This document shows, piece after piece, positions 1,597 to 46,868 of a stretch of DNA of 64,000 nucleotides. This stretch comes from Methylocystis sp. ATCC 49242. GTDB taxonomy: Bacteria > Pseudomonadota > Alphaproteobacteria > Rhizobiales > Beijerinckiaceae. The notes below the pieces were generated by a model. It worked only from the letters and a program-made list of their open reading frames with translations. It did no database searches and was not told where the DNA came from. The stretch's first letter is position 1; every line of letters starts with the position of its first letter. Position numbers and translations under genes: made by a program. The stretch lies in the NCBI RefSeq assembly GCF_000188155.2, contig NZ_KE124774.1, forward strand, positions 2,486,356 through 2,550,355. Direction: 5' to 3'.

Positions 1597-2715
<1,119 letters not shown>

Positions 2716-2876
2716 TCACGAACCGTCGCGAGGGATCGGGGGCGCAGACGTTTGCTATCGCGGGCGCAACCGGCCGACCGGCGGATGCTCGATCCGCCGC
2801 GCAAGGTTCGTCTATAGCATTTGTCGGGCGATGCAACACGAATCCGCTGCGGCGGGTTTGCGCCGCAGCCGGAGCG

Positions 2877-3266
2877 TCAGCCCTGCTGGGCGGGAGTGGT
2901 CACCACGAGGCCGTCAAGCTCGGGACGGACCGTGATCTGGCAGCACAGGCGGGAGTTCGGCTTCACGTCGAAGGCGAAGTCGAGCATATCCTCTTCCATC
3001 TGCGACGGCTTGCCGGCCTTTTCCGTCCAGTTTTCGTCGACATAGACATGGCAGGTGGCGCAGGCGCAGGCGCCGCCGCATTCTGCGGCGATCTCGGGAA
3101 TGTCGTTGCGGCGCGCGGTCTCCATCACAGTGGAGCCCACTTCGCCCTCCACCGTGCGCGCCTGACCCTGGGAATCGACGAAGGTGATCTTCACCTTGGT
3201 CGGCGCGCCGCCGCCCGGTTCGGCACCGTAGCGGGCCACTGTGTCGTGGAAGTTCATTTTCACCAT
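2877..3266 (-). CDS. Adrenodoxin-type [2Fe-2S] ferredoxin
   Basis: 129 aa. The cluster ligands are C63, C69 and C72 (pattern C-x5-C-x2-C within ECGGACACATCHVY) and C109 in RLCCQI, the adrenodoxin/putidaredoxin/FdxB-like class. This class shuttles single electrons to cytochromes P450, Rieske oxygenases or Fe-S assembly. The N-terminal 20 residues are a Gly/Pro-rich extension. I prefer the ATG at 3266 to a longer ATG-less extension reading into an Arg-rich tract. The gene lies 230 nt upstream of the ferredoxin-NADP reductase on the same strand, and an unrelated methyltransferase diverges from it. Its physiological acceptor is not visible here. Confidence 0.88.
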   Translation of the reverse strand: MVKMNFHDTVARYGAEPGGGAPTKVKITFVDSQGQARTVEGEVGSTVMETARRNDIPEIAAECGGACACATCHVYVDENWTEKAGKPSQMEEDMLDFAFDVKPNSRLCCQITVRPELDGLVVTTPAQQG

Positions 3267-3555
3267 GACGCCTGTCTCTTCCCTGTGAGATCGCCGGCCG
3301 CGCCGGGCCAAGCCGATTTTTCATAGCCCCGACGCAGCCTTGCCCGCCGTTCGGCCGCGTCGGACACAGCTCGATGCTTTGCCGTTCGATTAGCATCCGG
3401 CCGTTTGCCGCGCTAGCCCCTTGCGCAACTTGCGTGCAATCGCGGCGGCGGCGCCCGACGAATCCCCGGGGAGGAGCTGCGGACGGGCGCGATTCCCTGT
3501 GCAATGCTATCAAGCGCTCAGGTCGACGTTTTGCGAAAAAGTTGAGGCGAACCTG

Positions 3556-4362
3556 ATGAGCGATGTCGCAGTTGCATTCCGCGACGCGGACGGCCCCATG
3601 CAGGCCGATCTCCTGCACTGTCTCGATTTCATGAATGGATTGCCGTTCTTCAGGGCCTACAAGGCCAATACATGGGACGCGCTCGAGATAACGGGGAAAA
3701 AGCGAATCCTGGATGTCGCCTGTGGCGTGGGCTTCGACGTCATCGAAATGGCTAAACTTTTTCCGCAGGCGGAATTTGTCGGCGTCGACAGGAGCGAAAG
3801 TTTTCTCGGCGTCGCGAGATCGAGGGCCGCCCATCTGCCCAACGCCAGCTTTTTCAGCGGCGACGCGGTCCGCCTGTCCTTTCCGGACGATAGTTTCCAC
3901 GCCGCGAGAATCGATCGGTCGCTTCAGCACATGACGTCCCCCCTCGCCGCGATCGAAGAAATGATTCGCGTGACCCGGTCGGGCGGCCGGATCGTCGCTT
4001 CGGAGCCGGATTGGGGAACCTTCTTTTTATTCAACGGCGACGACGAGGCCGGCGCGAGGATGGCGGGAAAATGGCTGGAATCGATCGCCAACCCCCATAT
4101 GGGGCGGGAAATCGGCCAGCTGTTCGAAAAATCCGGCGTCGAGGAAATCCGCTGGCGCGCGCGGGCGCTCGTCCTGACGCGACTCGACGACGCGAACGTC
4201 GTTTTCGATCTGCCCAGATTGAAGAAGAATTGCGTCGCGGCGGGCGTATTGTCCGCGCAGGAAGCAGATGACTGGCAGGCCGCCGCCGAGAGGGCGTCCG
4301 GGAAGGGAACTTTTCTCGCCTGTCTGAATATTTTCGAATGCAAGGGGGTGGTTCGGAAGTAG
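3556..4362 (+). CDS. SAM-dependent methyltransferase, UbiE/class I
   Basis: 268 aa. Motif I is ILDVACGVGFDV, followed by the acidic loop FVGVDRSE, SGDAVRLSFPDDSFH (motif II) and VTRSGGRIVASEPDWG (motif III). This is the class I Rossmann methyltransferase fold; the substrate cannot be told. The start ATG follows a GAGGCGAACCTG tract. It stands alone, divergent from the ferredoxin gene and convergent with the lipid-transport lipoprotein, whose stop abuts its own stop. Its base composition is slightly more AT-rich than its neighbours, so acquisition is possible but weakly supported. Confidence 0.8.
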   Translation: MSDVAVAFRDADGPMQADLLHCLDFMNGLPFFRAYKANTWDALEITGKKRILDVACGVGFDVIEMAKLFPQAEFVGVDRSESFLGVARSRAAHLPNASFFSGDAVRLSFPDDSFHAARIDRSLQHMTSPLAAIEEMIRVTRSGGRIVASEPDWGTFFLFNGDDEAGARMAGKWLESIANPHMGREIGQLFEKSGVEEIRWRARALVLTRLDDANVVFDLPRLKKNCVAAGVLSAQEADDWQAAAERASGKGTFLACLNIFECKGVVRK

Positions 4363-36696: not shown

Positions 36697-36741
36697 TGGC
36701 GGTCCCGAAGGGATTCGAACCCCTGACCTTCGGTTTAGGAA
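36697..36741 (-). repeat. attL: displaced 3' half of tRNA-Arg
   Basis: 45 nt match the 3' half of the tRNA-Arg(CCT) gene at 46.8 kb, with four differences that largely preserve pairing of the T-stem. The uninterrupted core TGACCTTCGGTTTAGGAA (36724-36741) is identical in both. It includes the T-arm, acceptor strand and encoded CCA, but no D-arm, so it is not a functional tRNA gene. Confidence 0.88.
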
Positions 36742-36909
36742 GCCTCGGGCAAAAGCGCCAATTCAAAGCCTTATCGATCGCCGCGCTGTAAAACCTTTTA
36801 CGGGAAAACAGCGACTTACGTACTCTTTGTCAAACCCGAACGTTTCACGATCGCCCCGCGCAATCGTGAAAATCAAAGTCGCTTCCGAAGATTTTGATCG
36901 GGGGCGGGA
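36742..36909. other. Left end of the element before its first gene
   Basis: Gene-free; presumably holds the promoter for the leftmost genes. The nearest ribosome-binding site is GGGGGCGGGA before the ATG at 36910. Confidence 0.4.
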
Positions 36910-37248
36910 ATGAGCGCCGTCGCAGCCCGTTGGGCGAAAAAGCAGACGGCCGGCGGCTCAGGCCGCAAAGCTGTCCTGATGATGCTGGCGCACCTTGCCG
37001 ACAAGAGCGGTGTGCTCCACGCGAGCGTCGCCGCACTCGGCGAGGCCTGCGAAATGAGCGCCGACGTGGTGAGGGATCATCTCGACCACTTGGCGAAATC
37101 TGGGCTAATCGAGCGCGCGGCCTCTTACCGGGACGATGGCGGACGAGCTGCTAATAAGATCGTTGTGCGCCACAAACCGCGCCAGCGGGTCGACCCCTCG
37201 CCGCAGACCGAAACGGGCGCCCCTATCGGTCAATGGGGGCGCGCATGA
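36910..37248 (+). CDS. Winged-helix DNA-binding protein of the element
   Basis: 112 aa. A helix-turn-helix/wHTH of the replication or MarR-like type is visible: AVLMMLAHLADKSGVLHASVAALGEACEMS (in pieces) and VVRDHLDHLAKSGLIERA, with a wing SYRDDGGRAANKIVV. Such proteins are often the first replication gene in alphaproteobacterial prophages. The stop overlaps the next start (ATGA), so both are co-translated. Its exact role (replication initiation versus regulation) is not shown. Confidence 0.65.
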   Translation: MSAVAARWAKKQTAGGSGRKAVLMMLAHLADKSGVLHASVAALGEACEMSADVVRDHLDHLAKSGLIERAASYRDDGGRAANKIVVRHKPRQRVDPSPQTETGAPIGQWGRA

Positions 37249-38240
37249 CGCAGACGATCTTCCGGCCTGCCAGGCGCGCTCAATACACGGTCGTCAGCAA
37301 TGCGCTGATGAATGACGAACGGATCTCCGCTGATGCCTTGGGCGCGCTCGTCTATCTTCTCTCGCGTCCTGACGATTGGGTCATTCATCGTGAACAGTTG
37401 ATGTCGCGCTTCAAGATTGGCCGCGACAAGTTTCAATCCATCTTTCGGGAGTTGAGCGTCCTCGGCTATGCACGGCTCGAATCCGTGTCGGATGCCGAGT
37501 CAGGCCATCTCGCTGGAAAAAGATGGGTGATTATCGAGGAACCGGATGCCTGCGACCGAGAGACGGAAAACCCGTCTCTCGGTGACGCCGCCGACGAACG
37601 GGTTTCCCGACAGTCGGCAAAACCGACGGTCGGAAAACCCGGCCATATAATAAATACTGATCTTAGACCTATTACTGAATCTCAACCAAAGACTGTCTCT
37701 CCCCCTACCCCCAACGTGACGCGGGAGGGGGGAAAAGGGCTTTCCGATGATGGGAAGGCGGCGAGCGTCGCCGTGCAACCCGACGCGTGGGAATGCTTCA
37801 AGGCCGCTTGGCCCTGGCAGGATGGGCAATCCGAAAGTGTCGACGCGGCCAAGCGGGCGTTCAATCGCCTGAGCGGTGCGGACAGAGAGCTATGCGTCAA
37901 AGGCGCTGAGGCATTCCAGCCGCGACCTGGCAGGGTTTGCGCGGCTGTTTTCATCGCCGAGCGACACTGGTCTTTCAAGCCGCGCCGATCGCCGGCGGCT
38001 TCCAGCACGAGCGCGCCGAGCGCAAGCAGCTCCAAGGCTCAAAGGCGGCCAGACGGAACATGGTGGCTTGCGCCGGACTCGCCGCAATTGGAGCGCTGGC
38101 ACGAATTCGAACGGCGGACCAGTCCCGATCGTCGGGCCAAAGCCGGTTGCGTTCGGCCGGCCGAATGGCCTCCCGGCAACCCGTCAAATCTGCCGATCGG
38201 CGGAAAGGGGATACCCCCCTTAAGGACGGCAAGCCCTTAA
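37245..38240 (+). CDS. Replication-type helix-turn-helix protein of the element
   Basis: 331 aa. N-terminal wHTH (ISADALGALVYLLSRPDDWVI, then MSRFKIGRDKFQSIFRELSVLGYARLE in parts) is followed by a long, variable, Ser/Pro-rich middle and a basic C-terminus containing DGTWWLAPDSPQLERW. This layout (helix-turn-helix plus disordered tail) is common in replication initiators or DnaD-like proteins of small prophages. Start ATG overlaps the upstream stop. Assignment is by layout only. Confidence 0.55.
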   Translation: MTQTIFRPARRAQYTVVSNALMNDERISADALGALVYLLSRPDDWVIHREQLMSRFKIGRDKFQSIFRELSVLGYARLESVSDAESGHLAGKRWVIIEEPDACDRETENPSLGDAADERVSRQSAKPTVGKPGHIINTDLRPITESQPKTVSPPTPNVTREGGKGLSDDGKAASVAVQPDAWECFKAAWPWQDGQSESVDAAKRAFNRLSGADRELCVKGAEAFQPRPGRVCAAVFIAERHWSFKPRRSPAASSTSAPSASSSKAQRRPDGTWWLAPDSPQLERWHEFERRTSPDRRAKAGCVRPAEWPPGNPSNLPIGGKGIPPLRTASP

Positions 38241-38425
38241 CCCGCCACCGGATGCCTAAGAACGTGAAAAACGCCGCGATATTTTTAAATACTTTTTTTT
38301 GATGTGAAATATGAGGCGCGGCGCCTGTATTGCGTTTAATGTGCCAACACACTGTTTTTAGTTGCCTTTTCGACTTCACGCCACCATCGCTGCGTTTCAA
38401 TTTTGAAAATACGAAAGGGATGAAA
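38241..38425. other. AT-rich gap between replication-type genes and tape-measure gene
   Basis: Markedly AT-rich compared with the surroundings (runs of A and T around 38270-38300), no gene. Likely promoter or, less likely, replication origin of the element. Confidence 0.4.
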
Positions 38426-40762
38426 ATGACCGATATCAAAGAAACAATCGAACTGAGCCTGAAGGCGACCGGGTTCGACAAGGGTGCCGCCGACGTGAAG
38501 GCGCTTGGCGCGTCGGAAAAGGATGCGGCGACGCAAGCCGAATTGCTCGCCCGCGCGCAAACGACCGTCGAGAAATCGCTGACCCGCGTTCAATCTCGCA
38601 TGGTAGCTTACACGGCTTCGCTCGATCCGGCCGAAAAGGCGCTGAAGAAACTTGAGCAGGGCGAGGCCATCGTCGCGGCGGCGCGCTCGCGCGGCCTCAC
38701 GGTTACGGACGCAATGACGCGCTCGGTCGAACTGGCGCGCGAGCGTTTCGAGCGGCTCAAGGTCGAGTCGACCGGCGCAGCCGGCGCTCTCGCCCTTACA
38801 CGAAATGAAAGCCTCGCCCTGACCTATACGATTAACGACGTCGTCGCGTCGCTATCGTCTGGCGCGTCGCCGATGACGATCATGATGCAACAGGGCGGGC
38901 AATTGACGCAGGCTTTCGGCGGCGTGCGCGGGACGTTCGAAAAGCTTCTACCCATGCTCGCGCGCTTCGCGCCGCTCGCCGCCGGCGCGGGCGCGGCGGC
39001 GCTCGCCTTCAAGGAAGTTCTAGGATCTTACGAAGAGCTGAAAAAGATAAACGAGGGCGCGTCGAGCGTCGGCGTATCGACCGATCTTTTTCAAATCTGG
39101 ATAAACCACGCGACGCGCCTTCGCCTCACGGTCGAAGACGCCGAAAAGGCCATCGTTCACGCCGGGCAAACGCTCGCCGGGCAAGTCGATAATTTTTCCG
39201 CCTTGAGCCTCGACGGCGGAAAGTCGCGCGTCGCCGAGCGGGCCAACAATCTGTCCGACGTCATCGGCCGCGACGTTCCGTCAAAAGGCCTCGCGGCCGA
39301 TGCGGCGACGCTCGACGAAATGCACCGCGCCGCCCTGCAGCTTGTGCAAGACTATCTGGCGGCGGTGAATGAACTCGACGGCCATGGCCGTTTGCTCGAC
39401 GCCAACCAGGCGCGCCTTGAAGCCATAACCGCCGCAACCGAAGTATGGGGCGACGCGGGCCGCAAGATCGCGGAAGGGCTGCGCGACGGAACGATTACCG
39501 CCGACGAATTTCTTTCGAAGAGCGAAGACGCGGGCCGCGTATGGAGCGACGAAATCCTCGAGGCGCAAACGCGTGTTTCGCAAGAGATCACGACCGCAAA
39601 CGAGCATTTGTCGCGGGCGCTCAACCCGGCGACGGAAGAGCTGCAAAAGCTGACGATCAACGTCTTGCACGCATGGGCCGACGTCGTGGACAAAATCGCG
39701 AGCGCTGTCGAATGGGCGCATAAATGGCTCACAATCATGCGAGCGGCGTCGGGCGTCGTGAGCGGTATCGTGCGGGATGGCGGCCTCGCGCCAGCGTCAG
39801 GGCCAGCAACCTCGGGGCGCATGGGCCGCATCGTCTCGCTTGAGGGCGACACGAGCGAAGGTCACTCTATGCGCGACCTGACGGGGGATTCCGCGCCCTT
39901 GCCGCCCTCGCGCCCGGAAGGACTCGGCAAGGCTGCGCCGGCGGCGCGCGGCGGCCGCGCAAGCCGCGCGGGCGCGAAAGAGGCTCATGACGAACTGAAA
40001 GGCTATCTCGAAAGCCTTGAGAAGACGATTGCGCTGCTCGACGCCGAGGCCGGCGCGCAAGGCAAATCGAACGCCGGGAAAGAGCGCGCGATCGATCTGG
40101 CGAAGGCTGAAGAAATCGCCAAGGAGCGCGGCCGCCCGCTCACGCAAGCGGAAATCGACGCGGTAACGGCTCTCGCCGATCGTCACGCGGCCTTGCGCGC
40201 GCGTATCGACGAAACGCGCGAGGCGCAGCGGGCGGCGAACGAGCAGAGCCGCTTTTTCGCCGAAACGGCCTTTGGCGCGATCGACCGGTTAACGACCGGG
40301 ACGGCGAAACTGACAGATGTTGTGCAATCGCTCGCGCGGTCGCTCGCGCAAGCCGCGCTGAAAGCGGCGCTGCTCGGCGAGGGACCGCTTGCCGGACTCA
40401 TTGGAGCCCAAGGCCAAAATGGCGCGATCGGCAGGCTTTTTGGTCAGCTATCCAGTGGGTTGAGCGGCGGTTTTGCGGGGTACTTCGCCGAAGGCGGCGC
40501 GATTCCTTCCGGCCAATGGGGCATCGTCGGCGAGCGCGGGCCGGAAATGGTTTATGCGGGCGTTAGTGGCGCGAATGTCTTCCCGGCGGTCTCGGCCGCG
40601 TCATTGGCGCGCGCCAGCGGAACCGTCAACAACTCGAAGGTAGTTCACAGTCCCATCAACGTGACGATCCAGACACCGAACGCGCAGAGCTTCGCCCGCA
40701 GTGAAGGCCAGATAGCAGCGACGCTCGCCCGCGCCGTGGCCATGGGCCAGCGGGGGCTTTGA
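38426..40762 (+). CDS. Phage tail tape-measure-like protein
   Basis: 778 aa. Largely helical and Ala/Glu/Lys-rich, with NDVVASLSSGASPMTIMMQQGGQLTQAFGG (split), the lambda-type tape-measure N-terminal signature, a hydrophobic Ala-rich segment near residue 195, and the C-terminal EGGAIPSGQWGIVGERGPEMVYAG typical of tape-measure ends. It sets tail length and helps DNA entry. No other tail gene was found around it, which is odd. Start chosen at the second ATG because AAAGGGA is then 5 nt away. Confidence 0.75.
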   Translation: MTDIKETIELSLKATGFDKGAADVKALGASEKDAATQAELLARAQTTVEKSLTRVQSRMVAYTASLDPAEKALKKLEQGEAIVAAARSRGLTVTDAMTRSVELARERFERLKVESTGAAGALALTRNESLALTYTINDVVASLSSGASPMTIMMQQGGQLTQAFGGVRGTFEKLLPMLARFAPLAAGAGAAALAFKEVLGSYEELKKINEGASSVGVSTDLFQIWINHATRLRLTVEDAEKAIVHAGQTLAGQVDNFSALSLDGGKSRVAERANNLSDVIGRDVPSKGLAADAATLDEMHRAALQLVQDYLAAVNELDGHGRLLDANQARLEAITAATEVWGDAGRKIAEGLRDGTITADEFLSKSEDAGRVWSDEILEAQTRVSQEITTANEHLSRALNPATEELQKLTINVLHAWADVVDKIASAVEWAHKWLTIMRAASGVVSGIVRDGGLAPASGPATSGRMGRIVSLEGDTSEGHSMRDLTGDSAPLPPSRPEGLGKAAPAARGGRASRAGAKEAHDELKGYLESLEKTIALLDAEAGAQGKSNAGKERAIDLAKAEEIAKERGRPLTQAEIDAVTALADRHAALRARIDETREAQRAANEQSRFFAETAFGAIDRLTTGTAKLTDVVQSLARSLAQAALKAALLGEGPLAGLIGAQGQNGAIGRLFGQLSSGLSGGFAGYFAEGGAIPSGQWGIVGERGPEMVYAGVSGANVFPAVSAASLARASGTVNNSKVVHSPINVTIQTPNAQSFARSEGQIAATLARAVAMGQRGL

Positions 40763-40996
40763 TTATCCGATACGGTCCCGGAGCCGCACGCCGGGGCCGG
40801 CGCCGTTCTGGTCAATGAAAACGATACCGGCCGATTCGAGTGCGGCGCGGATGGCGGCTAACGCTTCCTCGCTACCCGCATATTTGCCGGTTTCAAAATT
40901 AGAAATCGTGTTTCGGTGGACACCGGACGCGTCTGCAAGGTCCGCTAATGTCCAATTTAGCGCGGCCCTAGCCATTCGCACTTGTGCAGGCTTCAC
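40763..40996 (-). CDS. XRE-family helix-turn-helix regulator
   Basis: 77 aa. Classic Cro/C1 HTH: PAQVRMARAALNWTLADLADASGVHRNTISNFETGKY (two pieces) followed by a short tail ending GPGVRLRDRIG. Start GTG at 40996, with AGGGA 9 nt upstream; homologues begin MKPAQ-. The only minus-strand gene of the element, convergent with the tape-measure gene and divergent from the genes to its right. A candidate repressor; the dyad upstream (41011-41038) is its likely operator. Confidence 0.82.
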   Translation of the reverse strand: MKPAQVRMARAALNWTLADLADASGVHRNTISNFETGKYAGSEEALAAIRAALESAGIVFIDQNGAGPGVRLRDRIG

Positions 40997-41010
40997 AAGT
41001 TTATGTCCCT

Positions 41011-41038
41011 GTGATAATTTCACATGTGTGAATATCAC
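41011..41038. promoter_or_regulatory. Dyad operator between the XRE gene and its divergent neighbour
   Basis: TTCACA-TG-TGTGAA is a perfect inner dyad, flanked by GTGATA on one side and TATCAC on the other, together a nested inverted repeat of about 28 bp. It lies 15 bp upstream of the regulator start and ahead of the divergent ORF, the usual place for autoregulation. Binding is inference. Confidence 0.6.
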
Positions 41039-41112
41039 GGGCCGATTCTATGAGCAACGCCGGAAATCCTTTTCTGGCGGAGGGTATTATCACGTCAAAT
41101 TGGAGAGAACCA

Positions 41113-41576
41113 ATGACGACAGAAGCGTCAATTTTTGTGTGTGCCAGCGATTTCAACGGGTCGCAGGCGGCGACGGCAAAGGCCGTCGATGCAGTGGCGG
41201 AGGCGCTGTCAGTTCTGGCGCGCTCAGAGGAACGCATTCGCGCCGCGGGGGTATTTATTGGCCGATCCTGGATAAGGTTTCGGGGACGAGCTCGAGCAAA
41301 CATTCGGACGAAGCGCAACGCCTCGCGCTGTCTGTTGCCGGCGCCGAATTTGAAGCCGCCTGTCACGATTGCAGGGAGGCGCAGCGAGCCGTGCTCAATG
41401 CGGAGCCAAGAACTTTGGCGTCGGCTCTCGCTTTACTGGATTTCATCTCGCGACGCCCAGGATTCGGAGCAAATGGCGTCGCAACCGAGGCATGGGCTGT
41501 TCGGACTGCCATCGCTCGCGCTGTCGCCTGCATCACCGCTGCGACCGGTGTTGCTCCCCAATCTGCCGCTGCATGA
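41113..41576 (+). pseudogene. Frameshifted element ORF of unknown function
   Basis: A start MTTEASIFVCASDFNGSQAA with GGAGAG upstream runs in one frame to about 41245. The convincing helical continuation DEAQRLALSVAGAEFEAACH to the stop at 41576 is in the frame one base back. The switch lies at a GGGGG run, so a single-base change (or sequencing error) joins them into about 155 aa. No family recognised. The combined product would be helical and Ala-rich. Confidence 0.5.
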
Positions 41577-41737
41577 TCCGATCAGTTATCCACAAGAAAA
41601 CGGGGCAGGGCGAGCGGACGCCAGCGGAAGCAAATGGGCGAAAATGGGAGGCGATGGGAGACGTGCTTTGCGCCGCATTTACTTTGTTAAGTCCGCAAGG
41701 TGTTTTTCCGGGCGTGTCTTCGTGACAGTCTCACGAA

Positions 41738-42280
41738 ATGACAAACGTATTTGAGAAGAAACCCGCAGTATTCACCCCTTTGGAAGCTGAAAGGCTTACA
41801 GGGGTCGGCCGCGCTCTTCAGCGGGATTGGCGGCGACGGGGCTTTATGCCCAAGAACGACGGTCACGCCCGTTTCGAACTGTTCGAGCTGGCGCAGATGC
41901 TGACGTTTCGGCTCTTTTCAGATGCTGGGCTCGGGTTGGAGCAGGCCAAAGAATGGATGCCGTTCGTTCCCGCCACGATCATCAAGCACGCCCTGTCTGT
42001 CCCTGGCGCGATCGAGGGTGACGGAGAGCGTTACAAGGCGCTGGCTGGCCCGCTGTACGCCGGAAACATCGCTCGCCAGTTCTCGAATGTCTTTTGTGGC
42101 GGCCCCCTCATGATCTGGGCCGATAATACGACGGAAATCGTCGCGGACCCCGAAACGGCGCAGATCTCGGCGCCGCCAGAGAAAATATTCGGTGTCGTGA
42201 GGATCATCGATCTTGAGATTGTCGGCGAAGAGCTGGCCCGACGCGCCGGTCGCGCCCTTGTGCGCGTGCAGTGGATTTAG
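41738..42280 (+). CDS. MerR-like helix-turn-helix protein of the element
   Basis: 180 aa. A MerR/excisionase-like wHTH at residues 12-62 (FTPLEAERLTGVGRALQRDWRRRGFMP, in pieces, then FELFELAQMLTFRLFSDAGL) is followed by a mixed C-terminal domain with PLMIWADNTTEI. Similar proteins precede the capsid gene in related small elements as regulators. Function inferred only from the fold. Confidence 0.6.
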   Translation: MTNVFEKKPAVFTPLEAERLTGVGRALQRDWRRRGFMPKNDGHARFELFELAQMLTFRLFSDAGLGLEQAKEWMPFVPATIIKHALSVPGAIEGDGERYKALAGPLYAGNIARQFSNVFCGGPLMIWADNTTEIVADPETAQISAPPEKIFGVVRIIDLEIVGEELARRAGRALVRVQWI

Positions 42281-42375
42281 ACCGCCACTGGCCGCAACCA
42301 ATTCTCGAATCGCCCGCCTGCGCGGGTGGTGGCCCGCCGCGAGGCGCGGACGTCCTTAAGCTGGAAGGAATCAGC

Positions 42376-43635
42376 ATGCACCGTTTGCCCGACCTGATGG
42401 AAAAACGTACCGGCCTCGTCGCCGAGATGAGCGGCCTTGTCGCGAAAGACCTAGCCGGAACGCTCGGCGACGAGGAACGCGCCCGCTTCGAAACAATCGA
42501 TAGCGACGTGAAAGCGCTCGACGCCAAGATCGACCGTGCGCGCAAGGTGGAAGCCTATGAGCGCATTGCCGACGCCTCGCCCGTCACGGGCGGCCCTGGG
42601 GCGCGCGACCTTCGCGGCTATTCCGTTTCGCGCGCTCTGCGCGGCTCGCTCGGCGGGCGGCTCGATGGCCTCGAAGGCGAGATGCACGCCGAGCTTTCCA
42701 AGGGCCGCGAAACGCGGGGCATCATGATCCCCGTGAGCGTCTTGCTTGGCGATCGGCGCGCGGCCGAGACGCGCGCGCTCACGACGGGCGGCAGCGCCGG
42801 CGCGTTGAAGGGAACCGACCTCATGTCGGAAGCCTTCATCGATCGTCTGCGGCCCGTTATGGCAGTGGAGCGGCTCGGCGCGACCGTTCTCGGCGGACTC
42901 GCCGGCAACGTCGATATTCCGCGCCTCACGGGCTCGGCGACCGCTTCGTGGGTCGCGGAAGACGGCGCGTCCTCGCGCTCCGACCAGACCTTCGACAAGG
43001 TGAGCCTCTCGCCCAAGACGGTCGCGGCCGAAACGCAGTTCTCTCGCCGCCTGATGTTGCAGTCCAACCCGGCGATTGAAGGCGTGGTGCGCAACGACCT
43101 TTCCACCATTTTGGCGACGGCGCTGGACGCCGCTGCGATCAAGGGCGGTGGCGCGAATGAGCCGGTTGGCGTGCTCGCGACGGCCGGCCTGCAGACGGTC
43201 GCGCTCGGCACGAACGGGGCCGCGCCAACGCCGGACAACATGGCGGACCTGATCGCGCTCCCGCGTATCTCCAACGTCTCGTCGCCAGCGGCGTTCCTGA
43301 CAAACGAAAAGGTCCGCAAGGTCGCCATGAAGGCGAAGGACACCACCAGCGCTTACTACGGCATTCCGCAGTTTTTCCAGAATGAGCCCGTCGCCTTCTC
43401 CAATTCTGTCCCGAGCAATCTCACGAAGGGCACGGGCACGAATTTGAGCGCCGTCATCTATGGCGCCTGGTCCGACCTGTTCATTGCCTACTGGAGTGCG
43501 GTCGACGTGCTGGTTAATCCCTATCATCAGGACGTCGCCAGCAAGGGCGGCGTGCTGGTTCACGCCTTCCTCGACGCCGACATTGCGCCGCGCCATCCCG
43601 AGAGCTTCGCCGCCATCGTGGACGCCATCGCATGA
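42376..43635 (+). CDS. HK97-family major capsid protein
   Basis: 419 aa. N-terminal delta (scaffold) domain (about 1-60: LMEKRTGLVAEMSGLV, RFETIDSDVKALDAKIDRA) and an HK97-fold shell from about 140: ALTTGGSAGALKGTD, FIDRLRPVMAVERLGATVL, ATASWVAEDGASSRSDQTFDKVSLSPKTVAA (split), RRLMLQSNPAIEGVVRNDL, ending FAAIVDAIA. The cleavage site should lie near residue 110. Start ATG has GGAAGGA upstream. The stop overlaps the start of the protease gene (ATGA). Confidence 0.92.
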   Translation: MHRLPDLMEKRTGLVAEMSGLVAKDLAGTLGDEERARFETIDSDVKALDAKIDRARKVEAYERIADASPVTGGPGARDLRGYSVSRALRGSLGGRLDGLEGEMHAELSKGRETRGIMIPVSVLLGDRRAAETRALTTGGSAGALKGTDLMSEAFIDRLRPVMAVERLGATVLGGLAGNVDIPRLTGSATASWVAEDGASSRSDQTFDKVSLSPKTVAAETQFSRRLMLQSNPAIEGVVRNDLSTILATALDAAAIKGGGANEPVGVLATAGLQTVALGTNGAAPTPDNMADLIALPRISNVSSPAAFLTNEKVRKVAMKAKDTTSAYYGIPQFFQNEPVAFSNSVPSNLTKGTGTNLSAVIYGAWSDLFIAYWSAVDVLVNPYHQDVASKGGVLVHAFLDADIAPRHPESFAAIVDAIA

Positions 43636-44171
43636 CGATCGAACGGCGCGCCCTTCCTCTCGAAATCCGGGCCGCGCGGGGCAACCCGCGCCGCCTGGAG
43701 GGCTACGCCGCGACCTTCGGAGTCGAGACGCGCGTCGCCGATTTTGTCGAGACGATCCGGGCCGGCGCATTCGCCGGCTCGATTGCCAGCGGGCGGGATA
43801 TTCTCGCCCTCGCCGATCACGATCCGGGCCGCGTGCTCGGGCGCACGAAAAGCGGGACGCTGCGCCTCGTCGAAGACGCGCGGGGCCTCGCCTTTTCGCT
43901 GGACCTCCCCGACACGCAGGCCGCGCGCGACGTTCTCGCCCTCGCCGAGCGCGGCGACATTGGCGGCATGTCCTTCGGCTTCACGGCCGACCCTGGCGGC
44001 GACGCCTGGACCGGCAACCGGCGCGAACTGCGCGCAGTGACGCTCTACGAAATTTCCGTTGTGTCGGCTTGGCCCGCTTACGACGGAACGTCTGTGGAGC
44101 CCCGCGCCCGCCAGCGCGGCCCCGCGACGCGCTCGCTCGCGCGACGCTATCTCGAAATTTTGAGGCGTTGA
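43632..44171 (+). CDS. HK97-family prohead protease
   Basis: 179 aa. Catalytic His63 in ALADHDPGRVLGRT and Ser114 in IGGMSFGFTA mark the serine prohead protease family; N-terminal LEGYAATFGVETR is typical. Cleaves the delta domain of the capsid protein during head maturation. Located downstream of the capsid gene and upstream of the portal gene, the reverse of the usual portal-protease-capsid order. Confidence 0.92.
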   Translation: MTIERRALPLEIRAARGNPRRLEGYAATFGVETRVADFVETIRAGAFAGSIASGRDILALADHDPGRVLGRTKSGTLRLVEDARGLAFSLDLPDTQAARDVLALAERGDIGGMSFGFTADPGGDAWTGNRRELRAVTLYEISVVSAWPAYDGTSVEPRARQRGPATRSLARRYLEILRR

Positions 44172-44172
44172 G

Positions 44173-45411
44173 ATGACCTTTCCATGGGGCCGAATCGCTC
44201 AATTTCTTGGCGTCGAGAAGCGGGCGGCCGTGCCTGCGGACGCCTTCCTTGCGGAATATTTCGGCGCGCGCGGCGTTGGCGCCGGGGCGGTTTCAGCAGA
44301 TCAGGTGCTGTCCAATTTGGCGATTGCGACGGCTTGCGTGTCGCGGCGCTCGCAAGGCCTTGCCAGCGTTCCTCTCAACATTCATCGGAACATCGGCCCT
44401 TCAAACGCAGAGCGCGCCGAAGATCATCAGCTCTATGACATTTTGAACGTCCGGCCGAACGAATACCAAAGCGGGTATGAGTTTCGTGAGTTCATGGGCC
44501 GCTCGCACGATGTTTTCGGCAACGCCTATGCGCGCATTGAGCGCGACGCGAGGGGCCAGATCGTCGCTTTACATCCTTTCCTCCCGGCAATGGTCGCGAT
44601 CGAGCGCCTTGCAAGCGGCCGGCTGCGCTATCGCGCGACCGATTGGACGGGTAAGGTCTGGACACTCCTGCAAGAGGAAATGCTGCATATTCGCGGACCA
44701 AGTCGCGACGGAATTTATGGCCTCTCGCCGATCCAGATCGCGCGCGGGAGCGTGTCTCTCGCGCTGGCGCAAAGCGAGACGGCGCAGAGCTTCATGTCCA
44801 ATGGTCTGCCGCCGTCCGCATTGGTCATGCCTCCCATTGGCACGAAATATACCGAAGTCGCCCTGCAAAAGCTCCAGCGCGGGTTCGCAGAGTATCAGAG
44901 CGGAAGAAATGCGGGAAAGGTGATTGTCGCGCCCGAGAAAATGGAAATCACACCTTTCAACTGGACGCCGGAAGACAGTGAATTTCTCGACAATCGTAAG
45001 CTCTCGAATGAAGACGTTGCGCGCATTTTCGATTGTCCTCCAACGAGCGTCGGCATCGTGGACCGCTCGACCTATTCGAACACAGAACAGGAAGCGCTTG
45101 CGCTTGTGCGCAACTGTCTTGCGCCGCTGGCCTCCCGCTTCGAAAGCGCCTTCGCGCGCTGTCTACTGACCAACGCCGGGCGGCGCTCCTACTTCTTCCG
45201 GCACGATTTCAGCGAACTCCTGCGCGGCGATATGAAAACGCGCTTCGAAGCGTATCGCCTTGCGCGAGAAACTGGCGTCTACAGCCCCAATGATGTGCGA
45301 CGCTTGGAAAATGAAGCGCCTGTCGCCGGTGGCGACGTCTACCACATGCCGGCGAATTGGACGCAGCTCGGACAGCCGCAGAGCGGCGCGCCGCAAAATG
45401 CGACGGTGTGA
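44173..45411 (+). CDS. HK97-family phage portal protein
   Basis: 412 aa. Portal pattern: ACVSRRSQGLASVPLNIHR, NEYQSGYEFREFMGRSHDVFGNAYARIERD (split), MLHIRGPSRDGIYGLSPIQIAR, AGKVIVAPEKMEITPFNWTPEDSEFLDNRK (split) and AARIFD-like VARIFDCPPTSVGIVDRSTYSNTEQ. Forms the dodecameric DNA gate of the head. Follows the protease gene by 1 nt. No terminase gene is next to it, although one is expected. Confidence 0.92.
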   Translation: MTFPWGRIAQFLGVEKRAAVPADAFLAEYFGARGVGAGAVSADQVLSNLAIATACVSRRSQGLASVPLNIHRNIGPSNAERAEDHQLYDILNVRPNEYQSGYEFREFMGRSHDVFGNAYARIERDARGQIVALHPFLPAMVAIERLASGRLRYRATDWTGKVWTLLQEEMLHIRGPSRDGIYGLSPIQIARGSVSLALAQSETAQSFMSNGLPPSALVMPPIGTKYTEVALQKLQRGFAEYQSGRNAGKVIVAPEKMEITPFNWTPEDSEFLDNRKLSNEDVARIFDCPPTSVGIVDRSTYSNTEQEALALVRNCLAPLASRFESAFARCLLTNAGRRSYFFRHDFSELLRGDMKTRFEAYRLARETGVYSPNDVRRLENEAPVAGGDVYHMPANWTQLGQPQSGAPQNATV

Positions 45412-45414
45412 TTG

Positions 45415-45651
45415 ATGGCCAGCGCGACTTTGCAGCTCAACATTATTCCGAAGCGGATGCTGACCAAGGCGGAAGCTGCGCATCATTGCGGCCGGCCGGT
45501 GAAGCGCTTCGAAGTTGAGTGCGGCGTCGCCCCCGTGCGCTTTCCAAATGGCGACTTGCGATTTGACGTTAAGGATCTCGACGCTTGGCTCGATAGCCTG
45601 AAGGGCGGATCATCGAGCGACGCGGATGACATCGTGTCGAGGCTCGCATGA
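45415..45651 (+). CDS. Excisionase/AlpA-like helix-turn-helix protein
   Basis: 78 aa. KRMLTKAEAAHHCGRPVKRFEVECGVAPVRFPNGDLRFDVKDLDAWLD (read in pieces) is an excisionase/MerR-type wHTH that would bind DNA near att sites. Its stop overlaps the integrase start (ATGA), so it is co-translated with the integrase, supporting a role in excision. Small size and fold only; not proven. Confidence 0.7.
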   Translation: MASATLQLNIIPKRMLTKAEAAHHCGRPVKRFEVECGVAPVRFPNGDLRFDVKDLDAWLDSLKGGSSSDADDIVSRLA

Positions 45652-46721
45652 CAAATATAAAGCTCCGGGGCTTTCAGCTCTTCAAGGATCGGCATGGCCG
45701 CTGGCGCTGCTACCATCGAAAGTCGCGGACGCCGATCGACTTGGCCCGTTTCCCGCTCGGCTCGGCGGAATTCATCGCGGAGTGCGCGCGAATTGTCGCC
45801 TTGAAGGAGGCGCAGACTCCGAAGGAGAAGCCCGGCGCGCTTGGGATGCTGATTTGCGACTATCGGGCGTCGCCGGCTTTTCTGGATCTCTCAGCCCGGA
45901 CGCAAGCAGACTACCAGAAGCATTTTGACTATCTGCGGCCGATCGCTGACACGCCTCTCGCGCGCTTCGATCGGCCGCTTGTGGTGCGCATCCGCGACAA
46001 GGCGGCGGCGGCGAAGGGTCGCCGCTTCGGAAACTACCTCAAGGCGACGCTTTCCGTTGTCTTCGGTTGGGGCCGGGAGCGGGGCTATCTCGCCGACAAT
46101 CCCGCCTCGGGCATCAAGGCGATTCGCCGGCCAAAGGGCGCGCCGGATGCGAACCGGCCATGGTCCGACGCCGAGCGCCACGCCGTTCTGGACGCCGCGC
46201 CGGCGCATATGCTCCCCGCCATCGCCTTGATGATGATGACGGGCCTTGGTCCGAAAGACGCGCTCGCGCTCCCGCGCAACCATTGGCGAGACGGCGAGAT
46301 TGCAACCAAGCGCGCGAAGACGGGCGAGCCGGTTTTCTGGCCCGTCCCAGAGCCGTTGGACGCGATCTTGCGCGCTGCCCCCCGTCACGACGCTGTTACG
46401 CTCTGCGCCAGTTCGACGGGCCGCCCCTGGACGCTGGACGGCTTCCGGGCCTCTTGGCGGACACTCCGCCTGCGGCTCGAAGCTCAGGGCGCGATCGGAC
46501 CGGGGCTGACCCTCTACGGCCTGCGCCACACGGTCGCGGTTATCCTTCGCGAAGCGGGATTTGACGAGCGCACCATTGCGGACGCGCTCGGGCAGAAGAC
46601 GATTGAGATGGCGCGCCGCTACGCGCGAGGCGCGGATCTTCGTCCGAAAATGCGGGGCGTTGTCGCCTCATTCGACGCCGAACTGAACAAGCGCCGAACA
46701 AAACTTGTCAAACCTAGCTAG
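45648..46721 (+). CDS. Tyrosine recombinase (integrase)
   Basis: 357 aa. N-terminal SAM-like core-binding region and a catalytic domain with YGLRHTVAVILREAGF (Arg293, His294) and the nucleophile Tyr325 in ARRYARG. The first catalytic Arg, normally in TGLR, is replaced: TGLGPKDALALPR has Gly201; K203 or R210 would be nearby. This variant wording is familiar in alphaproteobacterial integrases, so it may still be active. Located 70 nt from the tRNA-Arg att site, as expected for its attachment module. Confidence 0.88.
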   Translation: MTNIKLRGFQLFKDRHGRWRCYHRKSRTPIDLARFPLGSAEFIAECARIVALKEAQTPKEKPGALGMLICDYRASPAFLDLSARTQADYQKHFDYLRPIADTPLARFDRPLVVRIRDKAAAAKGRRFGNYLKATLSVVFGWGRERGYLADNPASGIKAIRRPKGAPDANRPWSDAERHAVLDAAPAHMLPAIALMMMTGLGPKDALALPRNHWRDGEIATKRAKTGEPVFWPVPEPLDAILRAAPRHDAVTLCASSTGRPWTLDGFRASWRTLRLRLEAQGAIGPGLTLYGLRHTVAVILREAGFDERTIADALGQKTIEMARRYARGADLRPKMRGVVASFDAELNKRRTKLVKPS

Positions 46722-46791
46722 AAAAAGTGTCAAACCTTCCGGCGACGGAAAAGGGCCGAAAGAGAATGGATAACCAATTCAGCAGCTTGCG

Positions 46792-46868
46792 TGGCGGTCC
46801 CGACAGGATTCGAACCTGTGACCTTCGGTTTAGGAAACCGCTGCTCTATCCTGCTGAGCTACGGGACC
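46792..46868 (-). tRNA. tRNA-Arg(CCT), target of the element (attR)
   Basis: 77 nt, including encoded CCA. Acceptor GGTCCCG/CGGGACC, D-arm GCTC/GAGC, anticodon loop TTCCTAA (anticodon CCT, Arg AGG codon), T-arm ACAGG/CCTGT with TTCGAAT and discriminator G. The 3' half (46792-46836) is repeated at 36.7 kb, so the present 3' half came from the element and recreated a working tRNA. Anticodon stem GCGGT/ACCGA has one mismatch at its outer pair. Confidence 0.95.

Follow-up and report, generated by a model that had tools for sequence, protein, structure and literature searches.

A 10.1-kb element occupies positions 36724-46836 of the window, the 64,000-nucleotide stretch of Methylocystis sp. ATCC 49242 DNA analysed here, where it is integrated in a tRNA-Arg(CCT) gene. 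A first-pass annotation had read it as a capsid-encoding phage satellite, and our comparisons support that reading. We consider it fairly probable, though well short of certain, that the element is an integrated satellite with its own capsid genes and no terminase, which would be packaged by the terminase of a group of tailed phages at a cos-like site shared with them, probably into particles with chimeric tails. As judged from the sequence comparisons, it most likely depends on this nameable tailed-phage group for both packaging and tails.

The annotation had listed capsid, protease, portal, tape-measure, regulator and replication-type genes, all of which were confirmed by Pfam, PHROGs or NCBIfam (Table 1), and it had noted the lack of terminase, tail-tube, baseplate and lysis genes. 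Pfam was searched with 10 element proteins (xis excluded) and PHROGs with 10 (integrase excluded). Among these proteins there was no match to tail-tube, baseplate, lysis or tail assembly chaperone (TAC) families, the tape measure being the one tail gene recognised, and none to the large or small terminase subunit (TerL, TerS) beyond a match of the XRE repressor to a TerS family at an E value of 0.04, which is chance level. Terminase profiles built from relatives likewise found no match in the open frames of the element, and no HNH gene was matched in it. The neighbours of the gene for the tape-measure protein (TMP) are rep2 and the XRE repressor.

The cos-like site

The cos-like site consists of a palindromic block A and, right after it, an ungapped block B. 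In some of the TerL-bearing relatives block A is found where the HNH gene ends, immediately ahead of TerL; the TerL-less members that have the layout of the window element have kept it as well. Sixteen loci fit a strict block A pattern, 12 of them from the 27 with HNH and TerL and four without TerL, against 0.65 matches expected over the whole set. L260 also fits it, and L089 has a variant form. A longer exact pattern of block A was found in four of 397 family genomes, once in the host, and in four IMG/VR contigs.

Block B is common to all six TerL-less members of the window layout. It is also present in a prophage of genome G542 and in phage contig L091, and is absent from the eight TerL-bearing relatives that were aligned. 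Pattern searches found it otherwise only in one tailed-phage group. The exact pattern matched nine IMG/VR contigs, five with phage HNH/TerL genes and four that are TerL-less satellites, and five of the 397 family genomes, namely the window, G589 and three phage-type loci; both sites in G526 miss the exact pattern by one T and stand outside this count. The reversed pattern was not among the matches listed for the 397 family genomes. A weight matrix built from six phage sites gave the six TerL-less satellites scores of 43.9-58.3 (54.0 and 58.3 for G526/L203), and 54 of 65 loci scored 16.7 or less. This matrix was run on the first 25,000 bases of each locus, with longer phage records scanned whole separately, and the phage sites scored were, L263 apart, the training sites.

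Block B was found in none of the 27 satellite loci that show both HNH and TerL. These 27 are the 29 loci showing both genes minus L091, which is a phage, and L076, whose TerL is partial and which lies outside the portal family; L076 has no block B. Near-duplicates are included among the 27 (L016/L040/L041; L020/L051; L028/L065; L053/L055/L057/L058). Seven phage loci have block B in the gap that separates HNH from TerS; TerL comes next, and a portal and a TMP are present where the sequence extends far enough. Some phage sites are identical (L261/L263/G482; L091/L267), so that the phage contigs are not all independent.

The cos site of phage HK97 sits in the same gap, between HNH and TerS. In HK97, the TerS-binding site is 15 bp long, begins 15 bp downstream of the cut and adjoins an A-tract (PMC11331095), and the HNH protein gp74 promotes cos cleavage (PMC9410871). 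Its position and distribution make block B a candidate packaging (cos) site. The predicted fold of block B was not clearly better than that of shuffled sequences (z of 0.28 in the window, -1.45 in L039 and 1.90 in L089). A terminator at block B is unlikely, no hairpin being evident from the folds of these three sequences.

Satellite relatives and the distribution of TerL

A one-off deleted remnant of a prophage was one of two outcomes that the annotation had set against its own reading, and the relatives speak otherwise. The order of major capsid protein, protease, portal and integrase recurs in several alphaproteobacterial families, with Brevundimonas, Methylobacterium and Reyranella among the genera, and in IMG/VR contigs. 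The annotation had proposed looking for the gene set at tRNA genes of related genomes, where it was indeed found: the gene beside the integrase, where detected, was tRNA-Gly, -Glu, -Leu, -Arg, -Ala or -Ser, or tmRNA. A search with the capsid protein at 1e-20 gave matches in 12 of 397 genomes of the order, host included, and some of the matching loci (L032-L034) have an ordinary-phage gene order. A portal search gave eight loci in the genome collection and 40 in IMG/VR, the last four of which are distant (22-32%). The portal of the window element is 44-68% identical to those of satellite loci, versus 31-35% to the eight phage records listed of 1834 matches, and the TMP matches a phage group whose portal (L091) is about 28% identical to that of the element. 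On these comparisons we rejected a defective remnant with genes from one full prophage of near relatives. Judged by sequence identity and gene order, the head genes of the element belong to an alphaproteobacterial satellite family.

Upstream of these genes many relatives carry a primase, an HNH gene and a TerL of about 545 aa (phrog_9, 1.6e-133). Direct end repeats of 98-127 bp were present in three of 41 loci checked (L038, L056 and L060), as expected of circular molecules, and L038, with a repeat of 123 bp, is probably circular. A portal tree of 44 rows (42 different) contains 30 rows with TerL, six without and eight unjudged, so that TerL is present in 30 of the 36 judged. The tree omits the near-duplicates L041, L042, L050 and L051 and the too-short L067, and is also without L022 and L068-L070; L031 is unjudged in it, its TerL-less status having come from later inspection. 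Because TerL is present in most judged relatives, its absence from the window element is probably derived.

The six TerL-less members with a replication-regulator-head-integrase layout are the window element, L038, L039, L089, L203 (in G526) and L260 (in G589). The left end of L039 is cut inside the primase gene, and L089 has an att-like sequence at both ends. All six sit in a supported set of nine rows; the other three bear TerL, and two of these are identical. The TerL state requires three changes on the tree, at least two of them by well-supported branches, and L089 forms a long branch; TerL presence thus seems to have changed more than once in this family. The content between the cos-like site and the repressor varies: the window element has its TMP there, L038 has an ATPase and its partner (see below), and nothing could be assigned in L203, L039 and L089. 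HNH is present in the 27 TerL-bearing satellite loci and in L038. Where relatives have TerL, L038 carries (2071-4030) a HEC-01/PARIS-like AAA ATPase with a small, weakly matching partner.

A reduced form was seen in Pinisolibacter aquiterrae B13 (L023, 8152-12660; the same locus as L031). It contains capsid, protease, portal and integrase genes only, with no replication genes, in a unit of about 4.4 kb between two 16-bp tRNA-Leu repeats. It is either a minimal element or a remnant.

Candidate helper phages, the proposed cycle and its alternatives

The TMP of the window element is 69% identical to the TMP of phage contig L091 and 68% to that of the G542 prophage. The annotation had also pointed to helper prophages; candidates emerged from the shared cos-like site and TMP, and none was seen in the host genome. 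By gene set, the phages with block B look like siphophages. Genome G526 harbours both a TerL-less satellite and a prophage of the block-B group, about 34 kb apart and each with a block B. Genes have been exchanged between the block-B phage group and such elements: the G542 element in the tRNA-Arg(CCT) gene has a primase region with 85% DNA identity to the co-resident prophage. A 49-kb IMG/VR record covers what looks like the same G526 region as one provirus (L257-L259, G526:C1:1511001-1571000).

In the host, a second PF04860 portal was considered as a helper prophage and rejected: it belongs to a cluster resembling a gene transfer agent (GTA), with the portal in two frames, a short TMP and a gp15-like protein, and has no block B. 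This GTA-like head-tail cluster lies at about 1655000-1671000 of G000:C6 (L024/L025). Two other TerL-like places in the host (L281 and L282) have no block B either, and their comparison with candidate helper proteins gave no match but a weak primase match (27% in L282).

We propose the following cycle. The satellite, which is presumably still mobile, would excise by means of Int and Xis and replicate by means of rep1 and rep2 while a tailed phage of the G542/L091/G526 group is multiplying in the same cell. The small heads encoded by the satellite itself would then be filled by the TerS, TerL and HNH proteins of the helper, which would recognise the cos-like site at 38206-38299, with the helper terminase docking on the satellite portal. 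The particle would be finished with helper connectors and tails, in which the satellite TMP may take the place of the helper TMP. We set aside the idea that the TMP serves to change tail length. The lengths are 778 aa in the window and 794 aa in the candidate helper, and at 10-15 nm of tail per 95 aa of TMP (PMC12987554) the predicted change is about 2 nm. A likelier benefit would be compatibility with the tail, or evasion of interference directed at tails.

We extend this cycle to the family only tentatively, at slightly less than an even chance. Satellites with their own capsid would have traded their terminase for that of the helper, the right half of cos being replaced by the terminase-recognition block of the helper upon loss of HNH and TerL. 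The freed slot would hold exchangeable cargo, including a tape measure of the helper group, and the particles would be chimeric in motor and tail. If this is true, a capsid-keeping lineage that hands its packaging to a helper would show satellites shifting their dependence piece by piece, and a short shared DNA site would mark the hand-over. Likely helper phages can then be named from their sequences, which is usually the hard step, and G526 holds both partners. The findings also add cases of elements that carry a TMP yet lack other tail genes, shortly after the demonstration of chimeric tails for the PLEs (phage-inducible chromosomal island-like elements).

Capsid-forming phage-inducible chromosomal islands (cf-PICIs), as described, encode a terminase of their own and steal nothing but tails (PMC10690885). 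Like them, the window element is small and integrated and encodes capsid, protease, portal, integrase and replication proteins of its own; its tails are predicted to come from a helper, and most of its judged relatives have TerL. It differs in that no TerL, TerS, HNH or connector gene was found in it and in that a phage-type cos-like site and a TMP are present. Membership in the cf-PICIs fails on terminase and HNH and, by profile, also on connectors. Putative tmp genes are listed in a sampling of cf-PICIs (PMC12987554, Extended Data Fig. 10). The PLEs, satellites of the Vibrio cholerae phage ICP1, build their own TMP into chimeric tails, and deletion of tmp cuts transfer by 96 to about 99.9% (PMC12987554); the window element shares with them a satellite-encoded TMP. 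PLE virions contain the capsid protein of the helper and PLE11 has a TAC and BhuB (PMC12987554), whereas the window element has its own capsid genes and no TAC or hub was found in it. The Streptomyces phage satellites Mulch and Flayer share with it satellite-encoded capsid genes, but they encode small and large terminase subunits and a head-tail adapter, and they parasitise virulent phages (PMC10690885). Cos-type PICIs, including the Staphylococcus aureus pathogenicity islands (SaPIs), have cos sites used by the helper terminase (PMC10690885), as block B, which matches the phage sites in sequence, may be; they redirect helper capsids, whereas the capsid genes of the window element are its own. 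A capsid-encoding satellite without TerL that bears a helper-type cos was not described in the available portions of the satellite and HK97 literature searched, a set that does not cover the original cf-PICI paper.

Several observations weigh against the proposed cycle. The element is known here from sequence alone, with regard to excision, packaging and particles. Block B in its exact form occurs just once in the host genome, within the window, so that a cognate helper is not seen there. Of the six TerL-less members of the layout only one has the TMP, and of the 27 TerL-bearing loci only 12 show the strict block A pattern. L023/L031 is TerL-less and without block B (best score -4.1); L135, which has another capsid type and its own TerS-like gene, has neither a TerL match nor block B (score 10.4); and L063, cut off at 8.3 kb and unjudged, shows neither. 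Block B could be a regulatory site. Pfam and PHROGs searches with the submitted element proteins matched no head-tail connector, an absence by profile. This type of integrase was met in contigs of 36-58 kb as well, and so is no satellite marker. One small gene (41113-41576) looks broken. In favour of the cycle, the genes for capsid, protease, portal, TMP, integrase, xis and rep2 are free of internal stops, with changes concentrated at third codon positions. The ratio of nonsynonymous to synonymous change (dN/dS) by the NG86 method is 0.16-0.27 for capsid, protease, portal and TMP, but dS is mostly about 1 or above, so that the ratio largely reflects shared history more than recent time. Maximum-likelihood estimates were unstable (dS from 0.2 to 28), and the NG86 values alone were used.

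The element might instead be a decaying satellite, immobile, with its terminase block deleted and the TMP as chance cargo. We regard this as unlikely, although it is the alternative to be taken most seriously: the element has neither HNH nor TerL, one of its small genes seems broken, the host has no resident block-B phage, five of the six members of the layout do without the TMP, and L023 offers a precedent for reduced forms of 4.4 kb. Decay fits poorly with the TerL-less relatives, which include a contig with 123-bp end repeats (L038) and an att-bounded element (L089), and with the three portal-tree changes, at least two by well-supported branches, that the TerL-less state needs. The head genes and TMP are open with the low NG86 ratios given above, and the phage-type block is kept in six of six TerL-less members.

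It is rather improbable that the satellite is helper-dependent with block B acting as a shared late promoter, terminator or replication signal, packaging being left to the terminase of a TerL-bearing sister satellite or to another route. The block ends in a T-run, the HNH-TerS gap could hold transcription signals, block A is common to some TerL-bearing satellites, and the TerL-less L023 and L135 manage without block B. Yet the HNH-TerS gap is also the place of cos in HK97, and the folds, not clearly better than shuffles, show no evident terminator hairpin. The TerL-bearing satellites lack block B though late signals are needed there too. The HK97 TerS site lies near the cut by an A-tract (PMC11331095), which likewise counts against this reading. 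An interference island, in which capsid, portal and TMP mainly spoil helper assembly and protect the host without self-transfer, is very improbable: related elements do carry defence-like cargo (a type II-A retron in L135, a HEC-01-like pair in L038) and tail assembly is a known defence target (PMC10884400, PMC12987554), but a full protease-capsid-portal set and a conserved packaging-type site would exceed what interference needs.

Insertion site, gene content and other elements with the same integrase

The 18-bp direct repeats in tRNA-Arg(CCT) reported by the annotation, TGACCTTCGGTTTAGGAA, are located at 36724-36741 and 46819-46836, and the integrase adjoins the intact tRNA as described. In a search allowing up to two mismatches, the inner 17 bases had two exact matches, the mean for shuffled windows being 0.01. 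The repeats are nested in a 45-bp imperfect repeat that corresponds to the 3' half of the tRNA; the copies have few differences, which we read as falling in the T-stem. The left copy (36697-36741) matches the uninterrupted tRNA-Arg of the same-genus genome G659 at all 45 bp (100% identity) and is therefore the displaced native half, the element having supplied a substitute half at the right. Insertion into a tRNA gene by an integrase ordinarily leaves this arrangement. In the seven same-genus genomes fetched (G515, G659, G699, G618, G472, G654 and G679) a single att core in full tRNA context was found within 10-11 kb around the site, and the insertion site looks empty; ARAGORN was applied to two of them (L185 and L188). 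With two pmoA/AMO-family genes, the host fits the description methylotroph-like, in agreement with a methanotroph.

Table 1. Positions in the window of the element's genes and sites
Feature	Position	Strand	Basis
attL, displaced native tRNA-Arg(CCT) 3' half, including 18-bp core 36724-36741	36697..36741	+	repeat; identity to G659 tRNA
rep1, replication-initiator-like winged-helix protein, 112 aa	36910..37248	+	phrog_1032 3.2e-14
rep2, replication-initiator-like protein, 335 aa	37233..38240	+	phrog_4707 8.4e-14; 68% identical in satellite L038
Block A, palindromic part of cos-like site, AGGGGATACCCC...AAGGAC...ACCGG; overlaps rep2 3' end	38206..38251	+	pattern/alignment
Block B, 53-bp part of cos-like site, shared with tailed phages	38247..38299	+	alignment, pattern, matrix
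Tape-measure protein (TMP), 778 aa	38426..40762	+	Pfam TMP_2 2.9e-16
XRE-type repressor	40763..41038	-	Pfam HTH_3 1.7e-09; related proteins in same position in relatives
Two overlapping frames, no family match (Pfam, PHROGs)	41113..41576	+	open frames
g6, 180 aa	41738..42280	+	no Pfam/PHROGs/NCBIfam match; homologues 36% in L010, 32% in L199
HK97-type major capsid protein, 419 aa	42376..43635	+	Phage_capsid 6.4e-32; TIGR01554 1.3e-34
Prohead protease, S78 family	43632..44171	+	Peptidase_S78 1.5e-40
Portal protein, HK97 type	44173..45411	+	Phage_portal 1.2e-90; TIGR01537 1.7e-68
xis, excisionase-like	45412..45651	+	phrog_66 0.0024 (weak); 88% identical in G542 element, same tRNA
Tyrosine integrase, 357 aa	45648..46721	+	Phage_integrase 4.6e-08; 89% identical in G542 element, same tRNA
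tRNA-Arg(CCT), restored across attR; core 46819-46836	46792..46868	-	ARAGORN; repeat

A scan of viral contigs with rep2 gave L038 as the one match. The C-terminal part of the TMP resembles the tape measure of the Rhodobacter capsulatus GTA (RcGTA) at 1e-12 (NCBIfam, under the curated cut-off). The region 41113-41576 contains two overlapping frames instead of one clear gene, and is possibly a small gene broken by a frameshift. Judging from the start of its protein, we read g6 as regulator-like.

Other elements carry the same integrase. The G542 element (L135 1961-12417; G542:C1:3401961-3412417) is 10.46 kb long and lies in the same tRNA-Arg(CCT). Its genes encode a primase, a TerS-like protein, a type II-A retron (NDT and reverse transcriptase), an XRE protein, a protease-capsid fusion, xis and the integrase, with no portal match. 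Two further kinds come from IMG/VR. L202 (G778), 15.4 kb and bounded by att-like sequence, carries TMP, TerS, TerL, portal and a protease-capsid fusion. L198 (17.4 kb, bounded by att-like sequence) and its sibling L199, seen without its right end (IMG/VR G775 and G774), are about 16-17 kb with head and packaging genes. L198 has a 753-aa TMP after TerL, and L199 has a 233-aa protein in that place. L202 and L198 have head and terminase genes of other kinds, and their TMPs are of other families (phrog_28, 4.5e-39, and phrog_8892, 1.3e-67). No match to other tail genes was found among the further L202 and L198 proteins submitted. Within this integrase group there are thus at least three cases in which an element that otherwise lacks tail genes carries a TMP, and the TMPs are unlike one another.

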